DNA from: a virus
Virus record (IMG/VR): IMGVR_UViG_3300027754_000047
Location: 1-64,000 of that record
DNA: 64,000 bases
Direction: 5' to 3' (one strand)
A program made the position numbers and the translations under genes. Below the pieces are notes generated by a model, which was not told the origin of the DNA, ran no database searches, and was given only the letters and a program-made list of their open reading frames with translations. Below, piece by piece: positions 13,332 through 50,740 of the stretch. Every line of letters begins with the position of its first letter. The first letter of the stretch is position 1.

Positions 13332-13656
13332 GCTTTGTTTCCTCAGTTTTGGTGACTATTTGAATTATAACTACGCCGGGCTCAACAAAAGGTAACTGAG
13401 TTATTTGAATTATGCGCTCTGAGCCGCCTGGGTCAGGAAATAGCTGGTTTAGCGCATAATCAGGTCCACCTTCAAAATCAAAGTAAACCAGTAGGTTAGG
13501 AGCTTTAACCTCACTGCTAGCTCGAATGAATTCAGTTTGCCCTGCTACCTGATAGGTGTTTTCGCTAATTTTGGTAATGGTGCGCTTAACCCCATAGCGA
13601 GAATAAAATACTACGGGTGTGGTTATTTTATTTTTAGGTTTAAGTTTTTTAATCAT
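13324..13656 (-). CDS. Hypothetical protein (about 110 aa)
   Basis: I place the start at the ATG of 13654-13656 (MIKKLKPKNKITTPVVFYSR), 17 bp after the preceding stop. A longer version from a GTG at 13734 would lie inside the upstream gene and is less likely. The sequence is beta-rich with a basic start and ends in QIVTKTEETKHG. No domain was recognised. Neither candidate start has a strong Shine-Dalgarno sequence, so the start is uncertain. Confidence 0.6.
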   Translation of the reverse strand: MIKKLKPKNKITTPVVFYSRYGVKRTITKISENTYQVAGQTEFIRASSEVKAPNLLVYFDFEGGPDYALNQLFPDPGGSERIIQITQLPFVEPGVVIIQIVTKTEETKHG

Positions 13657-22302: not shown

Positions 22303-23057
22303 CTTACTACTCCGGAATTTCTCCGGCCCTTTCGGTTGTAGTCTGGACTATATCTTCCCCTTCAACTAAATGGTCAGGGGTATCGTGCATAGTCTCTGAA
22401 CCTTCCACTTGCAACGTTTTCTCGTTGCTTAGCGGCTCGGCTGCTGATTGGCCAATTTCCCATATTTTTATAACTTTCACGGTCGCTGTTTCCAGCCACG
22501 TTGTAGTCATGGGAACTATAAGGCTATTCCAGCAATTCTCGATATTCTCAATCTTTGATTTCTCAAAGATGACTCTTTGACAATTCAAGAACCAATGGAG
22601 TCGGCCGTGCATCTTCCTGGTAATTACCAAGAGATTAGTTGAATCATTATTCTTAGGATTGGCGTCCATATGATGGACTACTTCATGGGTTTGAAGTTTT
22701 CTACCTAGAATAGATTCCGCTATTGCACGGTGCTTCCAAAGCTGGCCGGTTGCTTTAAACGATTCAGGATCGTACTCATACTGGTTTGTATGAACTCCTT
22801 TATCGCATAAAAGACTTCTACAAGCTTTGCAGAATAGAGCGGATCCTCTAGCCGCAGAGAAAACACAACTACATGCTTTACAAGACAAGGTATAGGAATA
22901 CCTGCCTTGAGTTTCAAAGCGCTGTTTAGCTGATTCTCTTTTGGTTAGTAAGTAACACATTCTGCAAAGCTTTCGACCGACTTGTCTTGGACTGTCACAT
23001 TTAGAACATATTAACATGGCGTTTAGTATAACGCGTCTGCCAGTAAGTTCAAAATCA
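22303..23057 (-). other. Group I self-splicing intron with HNH ORF (755 nt)
   Basis: The intron begins after U34 and ends in G immediately before exon 2, the group I omega-G rule. The 3' part has diagnostic core elements: AATCAGCAGCCGAGCC (P/Q region, P4-P5), GGTTCAGAGACTATG (R, P7 5' strand) and GAAGATATAGTCC (S, P7 3' strand). These are typical of phage-type group I introns. The ORF for the endonuclease runs through this core almost to the 3' splice site. I could not place the P1 guide with confidence. Confidence 0.88.
22307..23017 (-). CDS. Intron-encoded HNH homing endonuclease (about 236 aa)
   Basis: The start is taken as the ATG at 23015-23017 (MLICSKCDSPRQVGRKLCRM); the frame is open further upstream, but only into the tRNA exon. 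Two N-terminal zinc knuckles (CSKC..CRMC and CKAC..CKAC) lead to the HNH core HEVVHHMDANPKNNDSTNLL followed by MHGRLH. Such enzymes cut intronless alleles to spread the intron. The last 80 residues are encoded by the ribozyme core, so either the tail is dispensable or core and protein sequence have co-evolved. Confidence 0.88.
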   Translation of the reverse strand: MLICSKCDSPRQVGRKLCRMCYLLTKRESAKQRFETQGRYSYTLSCKACSCVFSAARGSALFCKACRSLLCDKGVHTNQYEYDPESFKATGQLWKHRAIAESILGRKLQTHEVVHHMDANPKNNDSTNLLVITRKMHGRLHWFLNCQRVIFEKSKIENIENCWNSLIVPMTTTWLETATVKVIKIWEIGQSAAEPLSNEKTLQVEGSETMHDTPDHLVEGEDIVQTTTERAGEIPE

Positions 23058-28400: not shown

Positions 28401-29557
28401 CAGGGTGTAGCTTTAGCTTTTTGGAGTGCATTATAGGCTTCTAGTAAATGTGATTGATCTGCCCCAAAAAATTGTTGCATATATTGCCCGTACCTTGAGC
28501 CGCCAATCTCTTTTGCTTGGTCAGCCATGCGCTTGCCTTTAGCCCAGAAGCCAGCATCAGCCGGTAGGCTTGGGTGGTTTGCATTATACTCATCGATAGC
28601 GGCTGGCCCTTCAAGCCCTACAGATGTAGCCATGTTGACTCCTGCTTGGACTGCGCCTTTCAAGGGAGCTACCCACGGAGCACTAGTCAAAATACCGAGA
28701 CCTTGCCTAGCTGTAGTATAGGCGTCACTAGGCAGCACACTGGAATGCATAGTTTTAGCAAAGCCTTGATCTACGGGATTGGTACCGCCTCCGTCCCACG
28801 CATAATACTTAGGATTAAGAGCATAGTGCTTAAGCGACTCGAAAGCAGAGCCAAAAGTACCTTTAACAGCTATTCTAGCGGCCTCAGATTGAGACATTCC
28901 TTGCTGTACTAGTTGAGTTTCTAGTTCTTGCCGACGTTTATCCATTAAGTCGTACCCGTTTGCAGCATGGTGAGCTAGATCATTTACGGCAACCGCTGAA
29001 GTAGCAGTAAGAGCAGGAGTAACTACTCTTTTAGTTATATTTCCTGCCCTTGAGGTCCCTGTTAGGTTCCTAACTCGACCTGAATGAGGGGCAAATACAA
29101 AACGACCTGGCGGAGTATTAGCAACAGCTCTGACCGGAGTAGCAGCAAGCCGACCTGCTCCTCTAACTAATCTGGAGCCAGCGCCTAATGTGCCAGCGAC
29201 TAACGCCAATGCTGCGGGAGTATTACTAGCTATTGCTGGGGCAGCCACTATTCCGCCTGCGGCTCCGCCGGCTAAGCCAGCAACCCCTGTAGACAGGGCG
29301 GCTGCATCTAACAGTTTATCGTTCTGGTATCGTAGGGGAACCTTATTCGTCCCAGGTGCAGCATTTCTAACTCTACGCACAGTATCTAACCAAGTAGAAT
29401 CATCAGCATAATCTGAACCAACTCGACCACCTGACCAATAGTTTGCAGCACCTGTAAAAGGTTCTGCCAATTGATTACCAAAAGTAGACCACCAACCAGG
29501 CTGCTCGGCGGCTTGCTTAAGAACTAGGTTAATTAAGTTGTTGGCGAGTTTAATCAA
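28400..29557 (-). CDS. Ala/Gly-rich virion-like protein, paralogue of the 477-aa gene (385 aa)
   Basis: TTG start at 29555-29557, overlapping the RNA polymerase stop, with GGAGGAGTGGG upstream. Residues 1-20 are MIKLANNLINLVLKQAAEQP. Residues about 25-110 (FGNQLAEPFTGAANYWSGGR and GSDYADDSTWLDTVRRVRNA) are nearly identical to the start of the 39235-40668 product, then the two diverge. AALSTGVAGLAGGAAGGIVA is a membrane-type Gly/Ala segment. Probable ejected or internal capsid protein. Confidence 0.75.
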   Translation of the reverse strand: MIKLANNLINLVLKQAAEQPGWWSTFGNQLAEPFTGAANYWSGGRVGSDYADDSTWLDTVRRVRNAAPGTNKVPLRYQNDKLLDAAALSTGVAGLAGGAAGGIVAAPAIASNTPAALALVAGTLGAGSRLVRGAGRLAATPVRAVANTPPGRFVFAPHSGRVRNLTGTSRAGNITKRVVTPALTATSAVAVNDLAHHAANGYDLMDKRRQELETQLVQQGMSQSEAARIAVKGTFGSAFESLKHYALNPKYYAWDGGGTNPVDQGFAKTMHSSVLPSDAYTTARQGLGILTSAPWVAPLKGAVQAGVNMATSVGLEGPAAIDEYNANHPSLPADAGFWAKGKRMADQAKEIGGSRYGQYMQQFFGADQSHLLEAYNALQKAKATP

Positions 29558-32500
29558 CCCACTCCTCCAACTATTTTGACGGTATCCGTTGCGTCTATTT
29601 CACCTCGGTTAAACGCTCTAATAACGTCATCCTTGGTACGGAAAGATTTTACGTTGTTCTTATCGGCACCCTTACGGCTGGCTAGGAATAGCCCATATAA
29701 GAACTCGTTCTTGATAAAGTTGTGAGCCTTCATAGTGGAAGCCGATAACAAGTTCCTACTAGGCAACATGCGGTCGTAAGCTTCCTTTACAGCCCCTGCA
29801 CTACTAGGTACGTGTAAACGCATCTGATCGCCGTCGAAGTCAGCATTAAAACCTACAACGACTGAAGGGCTCATGCGCATGGTATTACCTGTAGTTAATA
29901 CCGGCTTGGCTGCCATGAAGTTGTATTTGTGTAGTACCGGAGCTCGAGTAATGAGTACCGGCCTTTTTTCCATTTCATACAACAAAGCCCTACGAGCTGA
30001 GTCGGTCTTATTTTCTACTTGCTTCATGGCCTCAATAGGACTAGAGCCAGCAGCAGTAAGGGCTCTAATAATGTACGGCCTAAATACTGTAAATGCCATA
30101 TCTTCTGGTACCCCAACGTGGTCCATATCCATTGATGGATCAGGTGCAATAACGGCATTACCTACCCCTTCGACCGTAGAAGACAAGACCTTGCGTTGAA
30201 ACATACTAAACTTAGGATTGGAACCTAGCAAATGGCGAATTAAACCATTAACGTTCTTTTGCTTTAACTTAGCTGAAGCTGGATCGGTTAGGCCTACAGT
30301 AGCTTTGACCATACGGTAAAGGGCTAGTTGTTCTTTACCTGTAGAATCTGCACCTAGTTCAGTTTGCAGTTCCTTTAAGTTACTATTCATTGAATAGAGT
30401 TCTTTGTAAAGGAAGTTCATATCTGCCACCATCTGCATAGAGCCGGTGTCAGTAATAGGTCGGAATCTAGGAGGCAAGACCGGCATGGAGTCCCACAAGA
30501 ATTCCGATGGGTCTATTTTTCTTTTAGCCATTCCGTCTAGGTAGGCTAACTTAGTAATAGCATTAGATCGCTTTTGGCCTTTAGCTGTAGCCATTTCTTT
30601 CTTAGCTGCAGCCTGCTGGCTAGGAATGTCGTAGTTATGTAAGTAGGCAGTAAGGCCAGCCATACCCTTGATACCCTTAACGTCTTCGCCGCTGACTACA
30701 GCTTCGAAATCCTTTTGGGTCAAGCCAGTTAAGGATCTAACTGCATCCTCCATTACCGGGTTAACTACTTTAGCTGCTAAAGGAAAATGCCCGAAGGAAG
30801 ATTGGTTTACGCCGAAGATCTTCTCGTCAAAGAAGCCGCCATCTACAGCTTTGCCGGTACGGAAGTCTATATCTTTGGGGCTCTTTACTTCACCACCAGA
30901 CATAGCCTTAACGTCTGAATTGGTCATACCGTAGATGTTAATGATGCCGCCTTGGCGTTGAACGTTTACTCCAGCGCCCTTAAGTTGAGCTACGAACTTA
31001 TCCCAAACAAATGGTACGGCTACGTTGGGTACTGGAGTGCCAGCTTTAACTGCTCGCCAGTACTCGTCGTTCTTTTGCCCTCTGATAAGCCTAGCATCCT
31101 TAAGGACTTCTATAGCACCGTGGGCTAATAGGGAGTTAACATCTGCAATACCAATACGCTTAGCGCCTTCGGAGCCTCCCTTTACTGGGGCTTCTTCATT
31201 AGAGTACCCACCGGTATCTCGGCCGCTCAACTTGCCTTCTGCTTGATGGTGCAAGTTCATAAAGTAGCGAGTACCGGTAAAAACGTTATCTATATTCTTG
31301 TTGAGTCTCGGATCAAATATAGTTTCTGTGTCTGAAACTCTAGCTTTTTTAAGTTCGGCTTGAGCGAAGTCAATAAGGGATCCGTCGATGAAAGCTGGCA
31401 TTTTGTACGGTACGCCGGTCTGGGCTGCCAACTTCCCCAATGCCGCTTCAACGGCTTGTACAGGATTAACCCGAGTGACAAGAGCCAATGGATTATAGAT
31501 AACTTCATAAGCTGCTCCTGCCTTATCTTGAGGCATATCACTATCTTCTATTACCGCAGAGATAACACCTTTATCTCCGTAACGCCCTACTAGCTTATCA
31601 CCAGCTGTCATAGGCTTATAGGATTTAATAGCAACTTGCCAACCGGTTCGGGTTGGAGTCACGTCGGTAACTACTCCAGGCTGAGAGTGTTCCCAAGTTT
31701 GAGCCCTATTCGTAAAACTAGGTCGAGATTTCTTCACTAAACCAAAAGTGTCAGACTTACGTTCTCCTACCCCTAAGATAATAGGATCGCCTGGATTAAC
31801 AACCGTGCCTGGTTTAATTACTCCGGTGCTATCCATTTGCTTTAGTTGGTCTTTGGAGTACTGCCCAGGAAACAACGAGATAAACTTGTTGTAATCAGCA
31901 GTATAGTCGTCCTTGTTGTCATAACCTACAGTGTACATATGCTCTGAAGACATCTTCTTCGCAGCACTAGCGGAAACAACTACTCCGTCTTCGAAGTTGG
32001 AACCACCTAGTTCCTCGTCGCCCCAAATCATATATGCTACTTTGAGGTTCTTACCCATAGCTAGGGCACCATTAGCGTCAGTATAGTTAGACTTAGCTAA
32101 TAACTGACCAGGCTTAACCTGATCTCCTAGTTTAACTCCAGCAGTATTGTGTATGTAGGTGTTGTGTACTAGTAGACCGCAATCTACTGCAAACACTTGG
32201 CTGCTGGCGACTTCGAAGTCATAGACATAGGCGGCAGGTTCAGCCTTAGTAATACTTACTACTGTATCCCACATAACGTCAGAGTCTGCCCAAGGCTTAA
32301 GCACTCCGGATTTAATGCGGTGCCGTTGTATGTAGCTTCCAGCAGTAGCAGTCTTGTAAACCGAATGAGGGGTTGTTGCCCCAGTGCCGGCATATGCCAA
32401 GACCCTACTAGCCTGAGTAACAGGGATCCCGTCGAACGTAGCAGCCCTAAAACTAAGGGAGGTTAAACTATTTAGCTTTTCGTTTCGGTCCTGGTAGCAG

Positions 32501-35500
32501 AACCAGGCTGCTAGTCTATTAATGTGGCTAGAGATTACTCTCAGGCCATAACTAGGATTCCAAGCTGCATTTTGGTGGAGCTTAGTCTTTGGCAGTGTGC
32601 AGAATATTCCTAGAGAGGCCAAAATATCTACCAGTCTATCTCTCATTAACAAACTAGCAGTCCAAGCTTGTAGCTGTACGGCTCCATTAGTATCTGAGTG
32701 TAAGCAACCATCTCCAGACATGTAGCCTTGGATTAGGCCCTTACGAAACTCTACTGAGCGGAGCATAGTTTGCTCAGAGGGAGCCTTAGCGCCACTACCG
32801 TGTCCAAACTCTTGCCGCAGCCAAGTAGCGGTTTGCTTACAGGTAAAAGAGGCTTTACCTGTACTAACAGCATTGACGTGAACTTTAAACCCAAGTGTAG
32901 TCAAAAGGATATTAAGCTCTGCTTGCCGAGCTGCTGGTTGAGCGGCCAGTACTACTAAGTTTGGCTGACTTGCAGGTATGTGGCCCTCTGCTAAGTATAA
33001 TCCTGCCAATAAGCCCCAAGCATGAGTATCGTGATCCATGGTGCTGCAGGCGCCTAAGGTCATTCCTACTACAGGCAGTCGAGTTACGCCTACCTCACAG
33101 TCAGCTGGATATATGGGCACTAACTCTCCGGAGTCTCCTAGCGTAACTAAGGAGTGATCCTCAGTAGTAACCACTTGACGGCCAGATAGTGTAGTAGTCA
33201 GCACCAGGCGCTTAGTGTTAGGGATCTTAGCAAACCCTGTGATAGGCTCCCAAGCTGCCGCCTTAGTGTCCAGATTAATGGATCTTATTAGATCCCCTGA
33301 CTCTTGCTGATAGTCTTGGGCGGCTACTTGCTGAATTACTCCAGTTGCTCGTTTGATCCAAACTTTGGTAGCTCCGGCAACACACTTACGGTTAAAAGGA
33401 AAGTTGTTGTACAATTCGTACCGCTTCTTATCCTTGCCGTGCTTAACCTCAATGTAGTCTGCTGTTACATCGGTAACCAAACCTGCACCTAAAGCCGCAT
33501 CTGCTCTTACAGCACCTAAATAGGCTGATACTCCATCTTCGAAAGATTTACCTTCAGCATCGTTGGGATCCAGAGCTTGCACTAATGGTGCTTCTGCTTG
33601 CTGTAAAGGTAACGCTTGAGTGAAGTACTTTGAACCCATTAATAAGCGGCCACCCTTAATACCGGAAATACCAGGTACTAGGTTGGAGTTTAAATTAAAC
33701 ATGTTGGCATAGCTTGGTACCTCGTACTGTACAGCCTCAGGCTCTACGTAAGAGATCTTACCATTAACCATAGCTCGTACTGGGTCGCCGGTTCGTAAAG
33801 CCCTAGCAAGCTCGCCTGGAAAAGCTACAACAGCATCGGTAACAGTTCTAGCAGGTATTTGTTCAATCTTACCTGTTTGGATATTCTTCATCTTAGAGTA
33901 GATCTGGCCGTCAGAACCCTTTAAAGCTCCAATGGTTAATCTAAGATCTACACCTACTTGAGAAGATTCTGGAGTGCGTACTGGATCAATAAAGCCTAAG
34001 TGACTTGGTTGAACGGAGCGGGTATCTACAGGAATACCGTGGGCAGCAGAACCAATACCACCTTCGCCGGTGCGAATGACTCTAAGGTTCTGATCCAGAA
34101 TTTCCATTGGATTAACTTCTTCAATGGGCGCACCTAAACCCGAACCCATTAACACTCCACTAAGTACCGGAGTAAACACGCCGTTTCTAAATGCTTGTAA
34201 ATTGCCTTTATTGGTAGCCTTAAAAAGGGCACCACGTAAAGCACCTCCAGCATCTTTAACTATTCGCTCTGCAAAGAAATCCTCAGGGCCATAGAAACGT
34301 TGATAAGTTAAGGCATCGCGATCATCTACATCTTCGCTGCCCTTTTGAGCATTCAAAACCTTTTGACTAGCTCTTAGTAAGGTGCTGCCGGTAACTCTAG
34401 TTAAGTCTTCTTCGTTTAACTGAATGTGATCATTGCTTGCCTCAAAGTTAAACATAGGCTCAGTTGATTTAACTGGATCCATTAAACCGTTTAAATCGTC
34501 AAAGCCTGCTACCTTTACTCCGACAGCTAATCTAAAGCCACCTGTAGGCTTAGGATCTAATAATAAACTGCGGCGAAACTGCTCTAGTTCCGGACAATCA
34601 ATATCGATGCACCATTCTCCGTTATTAGGAGGTAAGACCTGGCGAACAATATAAGTGAAGCGCCGGCCATTACCGCAAGTAGCTTCAAACTTAGACTTAA
34701 AAAGCTTCTTTAGCTTTTTAATTTCTTCAGAAGTAATTACCACTAAACGGCCTTTGTCTTCTACTGGCGAGATACCTGGAGCATTATCTCCGTCTCTTAA
34801 AGCGTAGTAGACTCCGGTAACCATACCTGCAGGTACGGTGATATAACCTTCGGATTCTAATTTAAGGGTACCCCTCATAGGCACCGCTGCAGTCTTAACG
34901 CGAGCTCCTAAAGTTCTAGCTACTACTTCTTTATTAAGCTCAGTGTTATATAGGGCTGTACGAATACCTTCATACAGGTCAGGCTCACTTATGCCACTAG
35001 ATGGATTACTAGTAAGCCGCTCATATATACGAGCAGCATCATAAGGAGATGATGCTCTATTGTTAGCAAAAATCTCTTTGCCCCAGCTACGCTCAAGTAC
35101 CTCGTCTGGTACTCCGTAAGCCTTAAGCATAGGATATAGTGGCGCAACTGATTGACCAATTTCGGTAACAAACTTACCGGTATCTGGCATGAAGGCAACT
35201 CTAAAGCCTCGACCCTTACCCGGTAAGGTATTAAAGTGAGCTTCGTATTCACCCGACTTACGCTTACGTACATAAGCGCCGGGCAACAACCTAGCTTGAT
35301 TGGCTACAGTGTATTCGCTGCCTGCGTTTATAAAAGTGCCTCTGTTGGTTAAGTAAGGCACTCGAGCTAAAGTTAATGATCTATCTGTCTTATCTAGTAC
35401 AGCTCCGGTGGCTATATCTCGCATAACCAGCTTACCCTTTAACGGGTAATACAAACTTTGATTCTGCATCAAGGCTTGCTGTTGCTCTTTTAAACTGTAA

Positions 35501-35691
35501 TCTTCCGACTTACCATAACGCAAGTCAGTCAACTCCACTCTGTAGCGGGTATTTTGTAAAGGAAACTTAGCTGCTACTGCAGTAAAAACATTATCAAAGA
35601 TGTTTTTACGTGTAGCTGTGTAGTCGCTAAAGCCTCTAAGAGTTGGAGCTTGTGGTTGGATTAGGGCGTTTAAATCGTCCTCAGTAGCCAT
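29554..35691 (-). CDS. Fused RNA polymerase beta + N-terminal beta' protein with intein (2045 aa)
   Basis: Multisubunit-type RNA polymerase. Beta features in order: VPYLTNRGTFINAGSEYTVA (about 110-130), FIDPVRTPESSQVGVDLRL, the intein (770-1177), ALAMGKNLKVAYMIW, SNFEDGVVVSAS, GDKLVGRYGDKGVIS (about 1370) and NPLALVTRVNPVQAVEAALG. Beta' features follow: GEVKSPKDIDFRTGKAVDGG, MPVLPPRFRPI and the catalytic NADFDGDQM (DFDGD 1951-1955). The chain ends 90 residues later (RNLLSASTMKAHNF..). The bridge helix and trigger loop of beta' are absent and must be encoded elsewhere. Spliced length is 1637 aa. Position among virion-like proteins suggests a virion-packaged enzyme. Confidence 0.93.
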   Translation of the reverse strand: MATEDDLNALIQPQAPTLRGFSDYTATRKNIFDNVFTAVAAKFPLQNTRYRVELTDLRYGKSEDYSLKEQQQALMQNQSLYYPLKGKLVMRDIATGAVLDKTDRSLTLARVPYLTNRGTFINAGSEYTVANQARLLPGAYVRKRKSGEYEAHFNTLPGKGRGFRVAFMPDTGKFVTEIGQSVAPLYPMLKAYGVPDEVLERSWGKEIFANNRASSPYDAARIYERLTSNPSSGISEPDLYEGIRTALYNTELNKEVVARTLGARVKTAAVPMRGTLKLESEGYITVPAGMVTGVYYALRDGDNAPGISPVEDKGRLVVITSEEIKKLKKLFKSKFEATCGNGRRFTYIVRQVLPPNNGEWCIDIDCPELEQFRRSLLLDPKPTGGFRLAVGVKVAGFDDLNGLMDPVKSTEPMFNFEASNDHIQLNEEDLTRVTGSTLLRASQKVLNAQKGSEDVDDRDALTYQRFYGPEDFFAERIVKDAGGALRGALFKATNKGNLQAFRNGVFTPVLSGVLMGSGLGAPIEEVNPMEILDQNLRVIRTGEGGIGSAAHGIPVDTRSVQPSHLGFIDPVRTPESSQVGVDLRLTIGALKGSDGQIYSKMKNIQTGKIEQIPARTVTDAVVAFPGELARALRTGDPVRAMVNGKISYVEPEAVQYEVPSYANMFNLNSNLVPGISGIKGGRLLMGSKYFTQALPLQQAEAPLVQALDPNDAEGKSFEDGVSAYLGAVRADAALGAGLVTDVTADYIEVKHGKDKKRYELYNNFPFNRKCVAGATKVWIKRATGVIQQVAAQDYQQESGDLIRSINLDTKAAAWEPITGFAKIPNTKRLVLTTTLSGRQVVTTEDHSLVTLGDSGELVPIYPADCEVGVTRLPVVGMTLGACSTMDHDTHAWGLLAGLYLAEGHIPASQPNLVVLAAQPAARQAELNILLTTLGFKVHVNAVSTGKASFTCKQTATWLRQEFGHGSGAKAPSEQTMLRSVEFRKGLIQGYMSGDGCLHSDTNGAVQLQAWTASLLMRDRLVDILASLGIFCTLPKTKLHQNAAWNPSYGLRVISSHINRLAAWFCYQDRNEKLNSLTSLSFRAATFDGIPVTQASRVLAYAGTGATTPHSVYKTATAGSYIQRHRIKSGVLKPWADSDVMWDTVVSITKAEPAAYVYDFEVASSQVFAVDCGLLVHNTYIHNTAGVKLGDQVKPGQLLAKSNYTDANGALAMGKNLKVAYMIWGDEELGGSNFEDGVVVSASAAKKMSSEHMYTVGYDNKDDYTADYNKFISLFPGQYSKDQLKQMDSTGVIKPGTVVNPGDPIILGVGERKSDTFGLVKKSRPSFTNRAQTWEHSQPGVVTDVTPTRTGWQVAIKSYKPMTAGDKLVGRYGDKGVISAVIEDSDMPQDKAGAAYEVIYNPLALVTRVNPVQAVEAALGKLAAQTGVPYKMPAFIDGSLIDFAQAELKKARVSDTETIFDPRLNKNIDNVFTGTRYFMNLHHQAEGKLSGRDTGGYSNEEAPVKGGSEGAKRIGIADVNSLLAHGAIEVLKDARLIRGQKNDEYWRAVKAGTPVPNVAVPFVWDKFVAQLKGAGVNVQRQGGIINIYGMTNSDVKAMSGGEVKSPKDIDFRTGKAVDGGFFDEKIFGVNQSSFGHFPLAAKVVNPVMEDAVRSLTGLTQKDFEAVVSGEDVKGIKGMAGLTAYLHNYDIPSQQAAAKKEMATAKGQKRSNAITKLAYLDGMAKRKIDPSEFLWDSMPVLPPRFRPITDTGSMQMVADMNFLYKELYSMNSNLKELQTELGADSTGKEQLALYRMVKATVGLTDPASAKLKQKNVNGLIRHLLGSNPKFSMFQRKVLSSTVEGVGNAVIAPDPSMDMDHVGVPEDMAFTVFRPYIIRALTAAGSSPIEAMKQVENKTDSARRALLYEMEKRPVLITRAPVLHKYNFMAAKPVLTTGNTMRMSPSVVVGFNADFDGDQMRLHVPSSAGAVKEAYDRMLPSRNLLSASTMKAHNFIKNEFLYGLFLASRKGADKNNVKSFRTKDDVIRAFNRGEIDATDTVKIVGGVG
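32161..33384 (-). other. LAGLIDADG intein inside RNA polymerase (408 aa)
   Basis: Begins at Cys770 (FNRK|CVAGATKVWI) and ends at Asn1177 with block G LLVHN followed by Thr1178 as the C-extein nucleophile. Block B is TTEDHSLVTLG. DOD motifs LLAGLYLAEG (about 895) and LIQGYMSGDG (about 990) give a two-motif homing endonuclease. Block F is VYDFEVASSQVFAVDCG. Removing it joins FNRK to TYIHNTAGVKLGDQVKPG, the conserved beta segment ahead of the LALGxN strand. Intein removal appears necessary for activity. Confidence 0.93.
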
Positions 35692-48385: not shown

Positions 48386-48832
48386 TTAGCTACCAGACTG
48401 CACGAAGATCGTTTCTCCTGCAGCTCCCGCTGCCTTTCCTGCAACACCCGCCGTCTTGTCCACCGCCTCCTGAGGAGGAGCTTTCATTCCCTCATCGGCG
48501 GGCCGTCGGTCCCTATTGGCCTGGGACCGGGCCTTGTCGTCCTCTTCAGAATTCTTGGCCTTCTTCCTGTCCATCACTTCGTTCGCCTTGGCTTCCACCA
48601 TTGGGGTGGAAGCAACCAGCATGCCGAGCGCGGCGAAGGCCAACGTCGTGATCGTGGCCATGCCGTTGAAGCCGGCCACCACCATCGAGCGGGTTTCATC
48701 CATGGACCAAGTCCACGGAAATAACCAGCTTTCCCCGCTAGCAGGGACCAAAGCGTCTCCGCCGCCAATGGCAACGAAGAAGAGAATCGACACAACCGCG
48801 TAGGGCATAAAGCCCCAGAAGAACTTCTTCAT
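48386..48832 (-). CDS. Two-pass membrane protein with charged tail (148 aa)
   Basis: Two transmembrane helices (FMPYAVVSILFFVAIGGG and GMATITTLAFAALGMLVAST) enclose a Trp/Pro/Asp-rich periplasmic loop (SWLFPWTWSMDETRS). The C-terminal 60 residues are charged and then Ala/Gly-rich (GVAGKAAGAAGE). GC-rich codon use differs from neighbours. A structured leader (48841-48915) and its own promoter precede it. Function unknown; envelope-located. Confidence 0.7.
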   Translation of the reverse strand: MKKFFWGFMPYAVVSILFFVAIGGGDALVPASGESWLFPWTWSMDETRSMVVAGFNGMATITTLAFAALGMLVASTPMVEAKANEVMDRKKAKNSEEDDKARSQANRDRRPADEGMKAPPQEAVDKTAGVAGKAAGAAGETIFVQSGS

Positions 48833-48915: not shown

Positions 48916-48916
48916 T

Positions 48917-48967
48917 ATATATATATACCGCAAAAGGGGGTCTATTTTAGTCCCTCAATACTGTCAA
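48917..48967 (-). promoter_or_regulatory. Phage promoter, copy 1
   Basis: Minus-strand read: TTGACAGTATTGAGGGA, CTAAAATAGACCCCC, TTTTGCGG, TATATATATA. It lies between the terminator of the structured RNA and the leader of the 148-aa membrane gene. Confidence 0.75.
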
Positions 48968-48979
48968 CCTTTAATAGCT

Positions 48980-49478
48980 AAAAAGAACGATCCTTATGGC
49001 CCCGAAGGGTGGCAAGGATCGTTCTATAGCTGTTGCGGTGTTTCTGCAGAAACCTTGACAACAGCTAGTTATTGTTCCGGAACCTCCGGGCATGGCTTAC
49101 TAACACCTCTTCGTCCTGCCGCAACCTACTGATCTTGTAGGTCGCTTTAGTTATCCCCTCGCAAGGGGGGCGGTTTACGAGGGACAACCCAACTCTCGTT
49201 GGATTTCTAGGTAGGCTCTCGTCCCCTAGACATACCCACTCCAGTTTTATTAGAGTAGGCTGTTAATAGGTCCCTCACAGGTATGGGACCAACCTTGACT
49301 AGCCTCCGTTGCCACGGGGCGCTGCTCTTTTGCCGAGCCAGCATTAAAGTCGAACCTAAATGGAGTGTACAGCTCCAGTGCTACCGGGGGTATTTATTCC
49401 GGTAAGCTGCTAACCCACCAGTTAGGTAGGTCATACGGTAGGTACCGTAGGGCCCTATATATTGCTATATAGAGCTTA
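48980..49478 (-). ncRNA. Large highly structured noncoding RNA candidate (about 500 nt)
   Basis: It has its own promoter (49480-49525) and intrinsic terminator (48985-49024), and no credible ORF. The minus-strand sequence folds into many local helices: CTATATA-GCAA-TATATAG, TACCGG..CCGGTA, GGTCCC..GGGACC, TCTAGG..CCTAGA, CCAAC-GAGA-GTTGG, GACCTAC..GTAGGTT and GCTGTTG..CAACAGC enclosing GTTTC-TGCA-GAAAC. GNRA-type tetraloops recur. It is comparable in size and ornateness to phage GOLLD/ROOL-type RNAs, but I cannot match it to one. Confidence 0.7.
48985..49024 (-). terminator. Terminator of the large structured RNA
   Basis: GAACGATCCTT and AAGGATCGTTC pair perfectly around a GC-rich loop. On the minus strand it is followed by TTTTTAGCTATTAAAGG. 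Confidence 0.88.
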
Positions 49479-49525: not shown

Positions 49526-49533
49526 TAAAAAAA

Positions 49534-49562
49534 GCCCCCCAACTCCTTGCGGAGTGGGGGGC
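49534..49562 (-). terminator. Strong terminator after the 175-aa secreted gene
   Basis: GCCCCCCAACTCC, TTGC loop, GGAGTGGGGGGC. On the minus strand it is followed by seven T. It isolates the secreted gene from the structured RNA. Confidence 0.92.
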
Positions 49563-49583
49563 ATCGTCCATGGTGGGGGGCCT

Positions 49584-50111
49584 TTAGCGGCTCCACCACC
49601 ATGCCAACTGATCAGACCATGAAGGATTGGTCAACCGCTGCACTCGCTGCTCGCTCGCAATCTGCTGTGCGATTGCAGCAGAGGTGGCCGATTTGTTTCC
49701 CATCGACGCCCTAACATGGATCGCCGCCGTCCACGCCGGGATGCGGACGTAGTCAATTCCAGCAGCCTGCGCCACCCACGCATCGTGGGTGGTTTGGACC
49801 GTCATGATTGCAGCGACGCCCAAGTCGGGCGTCACCTTCGTCGCCGCTTCTACAGCGGCGCAAGTGGAGGCTCCTGCCTCCACAATTCCTTCTGGGGTGG
49901 TGGTGCACTCCACCTTAAGATCCAGCTGCTTCTGCAGCTGCTGCTCTGCCTCACTCCAAGCTGCCTTGGTCTCCTGGATGGAGACCAGCATGGCTGCGGC
50001 CTTTGCCGCAACCTCCTCCGCCGTCGGCGCCTTAGCCGAAGGTGGAGTCGCTTGGCAAACGCCTCCGATGAAGAAGGCGATTGTACAAACGAGTGTTAGA
50101 AGAGTCTTCAT
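49584..50111 (-). CDS. Exported Ala-rich helical protein (175 aa)
   Basis: Residues 1-21 (MKTLLTLVCTIAFFIGGVCQ) form a signal peptide; GGVC gives a possible lipobox. The mature part is Ala/Glu-rich and helical with two further Cys and ends in a Trp cluster (SDQLAWWWSR). GC-rich codon use. It has the structured leader copy 2 and promoter copy 3. Putative periplasmic protein; role unknown. Confidence 0.7.
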   Translation of the reverse strand: MKTLLTLVCTIAFFIGGVCQATPPSAKAPTAEEVAAKAAAMLVSIQETKAAWSEAEQQLQKQLDLKVECTTTPEGIVEAGASTCAAVEAATKVTPDLGVAAIMTVQTTHDAWVAQAAGIDYVRIPAWTAAIHVRASMGNKSATSAAIAQQIASEQRVQRLTNPSWSDQLAWWWSR

Positions 50112-50203: not shown

Positions 50204-50241
50204 GGTATATATACCTCAAAAAGGGGTCTATTTTAGCCCTA
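50204..50241 (-). promoter_or_regulatory. Phage promoter, copy 3
   Basis: Minus-strand read: GGGCTAAAATAGACCCC, TTTTTGAGG, TATATATACC. Its transcript would begin at the outer stem of the structured leader. Faces away from copy 4. Confidence 0.75.
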
Positions 50242-50368
50242 AAAAGGCCCTTTTAGGCCCTTTTAGGCCCTTTTAGGCCCTTTTAGGCCCTTTTAGGGCT
50301 ATTGACAGTTTTAGGCCCTTTTAGCCCTAAAAAGCCTCTTTTAGGCCCTTTTAGGCTCTTTTAGGCCT
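50236..50368. repeat. 10-bp phased repeat array GGCCCTTTTA
   Basis: GGCCCTTTTA recurs about five times end to end (50246-50297) and again as variants (GGCTCTTTTA, AGCCTCTTTT) to 50368. The unit length matches one DNA turn, and the array lies exactly between divergent promoters. Likely a protein-binding array (operator or iteron-like); it is not a CRISPR because there are no spacers. Confidence 0.85.
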
Positions 50369-50369
50369 G

Positions 50370-50418
50370 TTGACAGTATTAGGGGCTAAAATAGACCCCT
50401 TTTTGAGGTATATATACA
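50370..50418 (+). promoter_or_regulatory. Phage promoter, copy 4 (plus strand)
   Basis: TTGACAGTATTAGGGG, CTAAAATAGACCCC, TTTTTGAGG, TATATATACAT. The core is identical to copy 3 and faces the opposite way. It would transcribe the second structured RNA. Confidence 0.78.
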
Positions 50419-50419
50419 T

Positions 50420-50740
50420 ATGGCCGTTATAGCTATATATAAGAGCTTATCCATGTCGGAATGGCCTTTATAGCTATAACGAGCCAATATGTAGTAGTAC
50501 GTATTGGCAGTTGATCCCCCTCACCCCTTGCGGGGTGGTGCAGGTCGCTAACCCTAAGGGGGAGGCTATCCGGACAGGTACCTCCTACGGTGGGGCCTTA
50601 ACCCGACCTCCCCCCCGAAGTCTGGGGTCACGGTTGCAATGCGAAACCTCCACATGAAGGTGTGGAACACGGGAATCGCGCTTAAGCCTATTGGAAATAG
50701 GGTGAAGCAAAAACCCCCCTGAAATGGGGGCTTTTTTTTT
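50420..50740 (+). ncRNA. Second structured noncoding RNA candidate (about 320 nt)
   Basis: Bounded by promoter copy 4 and an intrinsic terminator, with no start codon in good context. Helices seen: CGTTATAGCTATA with TATAGCTATAACG (perfect), GCCAATA..TATTGGC, CACCCC-TTGC-GGGGTG, TCCACA..TGTGGA and CCTATT-GGA-AATAGG. Purine-rich junctions separate them. I do not recognise it as RNase P, tmRNA or 6S RNA. Confidence 0.65.
50713..50740 (+). terminator. Terminator of the second structured RNA
   Basis: ACCCCCCTGAAATGGGGGC stem-loop followed by nine T, then AGCTATTAAAGG leading straight into promoter copy 5. Confidence 0.9.

Follow-up and report, generated by a model that had tools for sequence, protein, structure and literature searches.

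As far as can be judged from its nucleotides, the interval 48980-49475 on the minus strand is a real, orphan, structured RNA gene that belongs to an accessory RNA/protein island of a freshwater phage. The window analyzed here, that is, the whole stretch of 64,000 nucleotides, is part of a virus record of 129,472 bases (IMGVR_UViG_3300027754_000047), which also carries a fused β/β′ RNA polymerase gene (29554-35691, minus strand) interrupted by an intein with a LAGLIDADG domain inside it. The portal protein of this phage is only a remote relative, with 26-28% identity, of the portal proteins of Salmonella phage Arash and some Vibrio phages. The reading that we favor, and hold to be probable, is that of an independently transcribed, structured noncoding RNA gene of ~495 nt that serves as an interchangeable unit of the island and yields a discrete, trans-acting RNA with a role toward the host or rival phages.

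The signals that delimit the gene are compiled in Table 1. The first-pass annotation had credited the RNA with a promoter and an intrinsic terminator of its own, and both are borne out. When a 35-nt promoter matrix trained on sites of relatives only, with none from the window phage, is run over the whole 129-kb genome, the predicted promoter at 49510-49476 (-) comes out as the fifth best site, with 19.9 bits, and the position of its -10 element puts the start of the RNA near 49475. The motif TAGCTATTAAAG follows the terminator of the RNA and recurs behind other terminators of the island. Since a terminator upstream (49564-49527) and a promoter downstream (48950) part the RNA from both neighbors, it appears to form a separate unit. 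It does lie between two genes of the same strand, as a leader, trailer or attenuator of one of them would, but it has a terminator on either side, and the downstream gene starts from a promoter of its own at 48950(-), right after a strong terminator, which makes such a dependent role highly improbable. The products of the two neighboring genes have no match in Pfam or PHROG, and both genes, used as search anchors, recovered the identical contig alone; for gene 49584, a weak relative is present in the island of one relative (L085).

Table 1. Coordinates of the RNA gene, of its island neighbors and of the pistol-bearing RNAs of unrelated phages.
Feature	Position	Strand	Remarks
Structured noncoding RNA gene, ~495 nt	48980..49475	(-)	transcript 49475 -> 48980; start inferred from -10 element
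RNA gene promoter, island class, CTAAAATAACCTCCTTTTTGGGGTATAATACATAA	49476..49510	(-)	-10 TATAAT at 49487-49482
5' hairpin, 10 bp, GCAA tetraloop	49452..49475	(-)	flush with inferred start; loop at 49465-49462; mean pair probability 0.96
5-bp hairpin CCAAC-GAGA-GUUGG, GNRA loop	49189..49202	(-)	loop at 49197-49194; mean pair probability 0.99
Perfect 14-nt palindrome GUUUCUGCAGAAAC	49040..49053	(-)	hairpin, self-complementary loop UGCA
Intrinsic terminator	48980..49025	(-)	12-bp stem 49025-49014/48995-48984, inner UUCG-type second helix as cap, then U5
Terminator of upstream gene 49584-50111, GCCCCCCACTCCGCAAGGAGTTGGGGGGCTTTTTTT	49527..49564	(-)	insulates RNA gene
Next island promoter, for gene 48386-48832	48916..48950	(-)	47.3 bits, relatives-only matrix; parts RNA from gene
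Small protein gene, signal-peptide-like N-terminus	49584..50111	(-)	promoter at 50236(-)
Small protein gene, N-terminal membrane segment	48386..48832	(-)	own promoter 48916..48950
Second structured noncoding unit	50421..50740	(+)	promoter 50386-50420 (48.4 bits), own terminator; fold z -4.4
Pistol-bearing large phage RNA	L117:6541-6860, L115:4890-5268, L118:760-1162, L120:230-560		pseudoknot core + pistol

The folding of the gene is unusual. The 501 nt of 49480-48980 (-) reach -203.4 kcal/mol, against -156.8 +/- 6.3 for shuffled sequences (z -7.4, equaled by none of 100 shuffles), and the z-score is -6.7 for the transcript alone, -4.1 for the RNA body minus its terminator and -4.5 for the opposite strand. 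Across 22 control windows the mean z-score was -0.9 (sd 1.8), but one of them, at -6.3, folds almost as well for its composition, so that folding by itself is no proof and this control counts against the reading that we favor. Both GNRA loops reported in the first-pass annotation (GCAA and GAGA) are real, and its impression of an ornate RNA stands, with 16 helices of at least 5 bp and a pair probability above 0.6 along the ~495 nt; its statement that nearly every stretch belongs to a helix was somewhat generous, because 63% of the bases are paired in the MFE structure and 46% have a pair probability above 0.6. The earlier description of the interval as noncoding is well supported by its sequence, as it holds no complete ORF longer than 45 codons and only three of 40-45 codons. 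These short frames are what a very short protein gene, or a decayed gene folding by chance, would leave behind, a reading that we regard as quite improbable in view of the very stable fold, the intact promoter and terminator and the lack of any other matching record; furthermore, one of the three frames (49093-48971) overruns the terminator of the RNA.

Searches for homologues returned the gene itself. The Rfam scan that had been proposed at first pass gave no covariance-model match in the interval at the gathering threshold and none that was convincing with permissive filters at E values up to 10, and this holds for the group I intron, the pistol and other known ribozymes alike. The group I intron model does match elsewhere in the window, which indicates that the search works; the intron in question, at 22323-22591 (-), overlaps an ORF that encodes an HNH endonuclease domain. 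BLAST comparison of the RNA with phage records, plasmids, E. coli genomes and 28 related viral records recovered only the sequence itself or identical copies, IMG/VR contains identical copies only (with 0 mismatches in 16 kb between them), and a 21-nt piece of the RNA found no match in bacterial genomes. The earlier admission that the RNA could not be matched to any known one thus stands, as no convincing Rfam family and no other record matches it.

Several features of the locus lay beyond the reach of the first-pass annotation: the promoter is specific to a clade and restricted to an island, 1 kb off there is a second structured RNA, and in relatives this island holds other structured RNAs. 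The repeats around the RNA gene proved to be a class of promoters that can be written as CTAAAAATARNCCCYNTTTTGNGGTATATATAC. With the relatives-only matrix, the five best sites of the genome all fall in the island, within 2 kb, four of them (50386+, 48950-, 50236- and 50769+) scoring 45-48 bits. The site assigned to the RNA gene is the weakest of the five, which weighs against an independently transcribed unit, although its score still exceeds the best value in six whole-genome shuffles (16.7). The island lies between the portal and metallophosphoesterase genes and is hypervariable. In the relatives, which were gathered via the portal gene and scanned in long records of 174, 183 and 111 kb plus several partial ones, strong sites are likewise restricted to the island downstream of the portal (G000, G003, G017, G023 and several partial relatives), and the exact promoter pattern occurs in 20 stretches among 2.9 million viral contigs, all of them from this clade. 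The metallophosphoesterase gene, tried as an alternative search anchor, was dropped after it retrieved mainly unrelated phages. One of the relatives, G003, also carries several tRNAs and a tmRNA gene predicted by ARAGORN (L046:3223-3588, minus strand).

Some transcripts of the island code for small proteins that bear a signal peptide or a membrane segment, and the others are structured RNAs with no conserved ORF; most of the transcripts open, like the RNA described here, with a hairpin after the start. Two RNA units are present in the island of the window phage, the second of which, at 50421-50740 (+), has a longest ORF of 48 codons and no homologue that we could find. At window positions 50240-50370, between two divergent island promoters, a 10-nt unit (AGGCCCTTTT) is repeated in tandem about nine times and could be a regulatory or replication element. 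As in phage morons, each island unit has its own promoter and terminator and the content differs among close relatives; unlike morons, some units are structured RNAs and all are united by a single clade-specific promoter class. The RNA gene itself, with its own promoter and terminator, has the profile of such an accessory unit, in that it is seen only in identical contigs even though portal relatives are 69-82% identical.

At the same place, relatives carry structured noncoding units of the same promoter and terminator design, and in these covariation is observed. In six related lineages (L006, L010, L085, L109, L015 and L026) one unit of the island encodes an RNA, ~190-465 nt long, that has a covarying H-type pseudoknot core in common with the others. 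The island RNAs of L006 and L010, the portals of which are ~77% identical, are ~235 nt long and have a like promoter and terminator; L085 carries a third version, and the form in L109, which is ~465 nt long, has the same terminator and the same 3' portion. In the consensus structure of the L006, L010 and L085 RNAs, six pairs are changed on both sides, a figure reached by one of 500 shuffles. R1, a covariance model built on the shared core, with E values that are only roughly calibrated, added L015 (E 3e-16) and L026 (E 0.0018) and gave no convincing match in several other relatives (G010, G014, G015 and G017). The core consists of the P4 hairpin CGG-AAUnCYA-CCG, with the loop CYA pairing with URGG of the downstream strand AAAURGGURAG. 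In nine sequences 95% of the pair cells of this pseudoknot are standard, more than in any of 500 shuffles, and sliding the partner strand by one column halves the standard pairing or worse. In L010 a C-G pair of the knot is replaced by U-A, both sides having changed. A third base-paired helix (P6), considered for the core, was dropped in favor of the pseudoknot, because L010 disrupts the helix and yet retains the knot through this compensatory change. As far as searched, the pseudoknot-core RNAs are a family new to Rfam 15.

Two further observations concern the islands of L085 and L015. At L085:15121 and L015:13423 an island promoter leaves so little room before the ATG that a leaderless mRNA would result; the gene encodes a conserved 138-aa protein with no Pfam match, and the L015 unit at 13423, considered as a longer RNA, was rejected since it starts with this leaderless-looking ORF. 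The structured 3' region of the gene (L085:15640-15745, L015:13925-14045) is conserved in both (GGAGCRTTGGG ... CGGCTACGGCCAAAG.CTCCG) and is another candidate RNA element.

The RNA of the window phage shares island position, promoter class and terminator with the pseudoknot-core family, and relatives exhibit both long and short forms (465 versus 235 nt), so that it might be a diverged long-form member in which the knot is the functional part and the rest a variable elaboration. Run without filters over the 2.3-kb island, R1 gives its best match inside the RNA gene, at 49408-49336, with a roughly calibrated E value of 0.019. The hairpin there, CCGGAAU(aaau)ACCcCCGG, has the conserved ends of the family and four extra loop bases, and six of 3000 shuffles are as good, in a scoring devised post hoc. 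The same hairpin obtains only 3.8 bits and an E value of 0.69, again roughly calibrated, from R2, a broader model with nine members. A second possible site, 49447-49407, is core-like when aligned with L115, but 45 of 200 shuffles do as well in a two-block matrix, which is to say that the site is no better than shuffles. The two candidate sites are, moreover, mutually exclusive and cannot both be the core, and pairwise comparisons among the 501-nt RNA, a 328-nt RNA and the RNAs of the relatives reveal no significant sequence homology. On balance, we regard membership of the window RNA in this family as possible but doubtful. Membership of the second RNA, 50421-50740, is likewise unsupported.

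Searching viral contigs with the core pattern recovered the clade RNAs together with five contigs of unrelated phages (L115, L117, L118, L119 and L120). In four of these (L115, L117, L118 and L120) a pistol ribozyme recognized by Rfam lies roughly 30-40 nt downstream of the core, the stretch being noncoding and its last ~330 nt conserved up to the terminator; the pistol-bearing large RNA as a whole is apparently absent from Rfam. This large RNA has its pseudoknot core in common with the island RNAs of the relatives, whereas the window RNA has no pistol match and does not clearly possess the core. We can only tentatively suggest, and with more doubt than belief, that the window RNA, the 50421-50740 RNA and those of the relatives form one new class. 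Its basis would be a small H-type pseudoknot domain that travels among unrelated phages, in some cases along with a pistol ribozyme, and its members would be expressed from an island devoted to RNA and protein units, under a promoter class of their own, and act on the host. A motif of the type ACCTGAGCAAGT...TAAACTGCTC, potentially able to fold into a small pseudoknot, recurs near several gene ends in L117 and in L047/L085, that is, in both phage groups.

Large structured phage RNAs are, to our knowledge, rare, and we know of none with a settled function. A likeness to GOLLD and ROOL had been proposed at first pass and holds as far as style is concerned, whereas no covariance model matches, the RNA is shorter and it has no adjoining tRNA array; the window contains two tRNA genes in all (25982 and 45893), each of them solitary. 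ROOL, the function of which is unknown, is an elaborate many-helix, nanocage-forming phage RNA often found near tRNA islands; the window RNA shares its elaboration but neither an Rfam match nor the tRNA neighborhood. GOLLD is likewise large, elaborate and noncoding, occurs in phages and prophages and is made up of a conserved and a variable part as in the RNA family of the relatives, but many of its representatives are longer than 800 nt and are found close to tRNA islands (PMC12286853), unlike the 495-nt RNA described here, the nearest tRNA of which is 3 kb off and which has no Rfam match. To OLE the likeness is in style only, again with no Rfam match. Given that the RNA is phage-borne, ornate and an independent unit, it might nonetheless form a homo-oligomer like these three, whether a cage or a dimer held by kissing loops. 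The self-complementary loop of the palindromic hairpin gives a hint in this direction as a possible homodimer contact, symmetric loop contacts of this kind having been found in OLE and GOLLD (PMC12286853). Short palindromic hairpins also arise by chance, and together with the differences in family, length and tRNA context this renders a homo-oligomer unlikely.

Returning to the independently transcribed accessory RNA, the clade-specific promoter would start it, a hairpin would stand at its presumed 5' end or close by, and a strong terminator would end it. This combination points to a discrete RNA that is likely to be stable and to act in trans, presumably by serving as a folded scaffold to which a phage or host factor binds. 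It most likely serves the same purpose as the membrane and secreted proteins expressed from the same promoter class, namely to interact with the host cell or with rival phages; its replacement by other RNAs in close relatives also suggests that its role concerns the host or competing phages and not the building of virions. No function is known for the proteins expressed from this type of promoter, so the host-interaction role must be considered guesswork. In a broader context, the results expose a covarying pseudoknot core, unlisted in Rfam 15, that is common to unrelated phages and, in one group of them, adjoins a pistol ribozyme. They also single out an orphan RNA gene with clean boundaries, in an island where close relatives exchange RNA units, and these two properties would make it possible to address its function through deletion and exchange tests.
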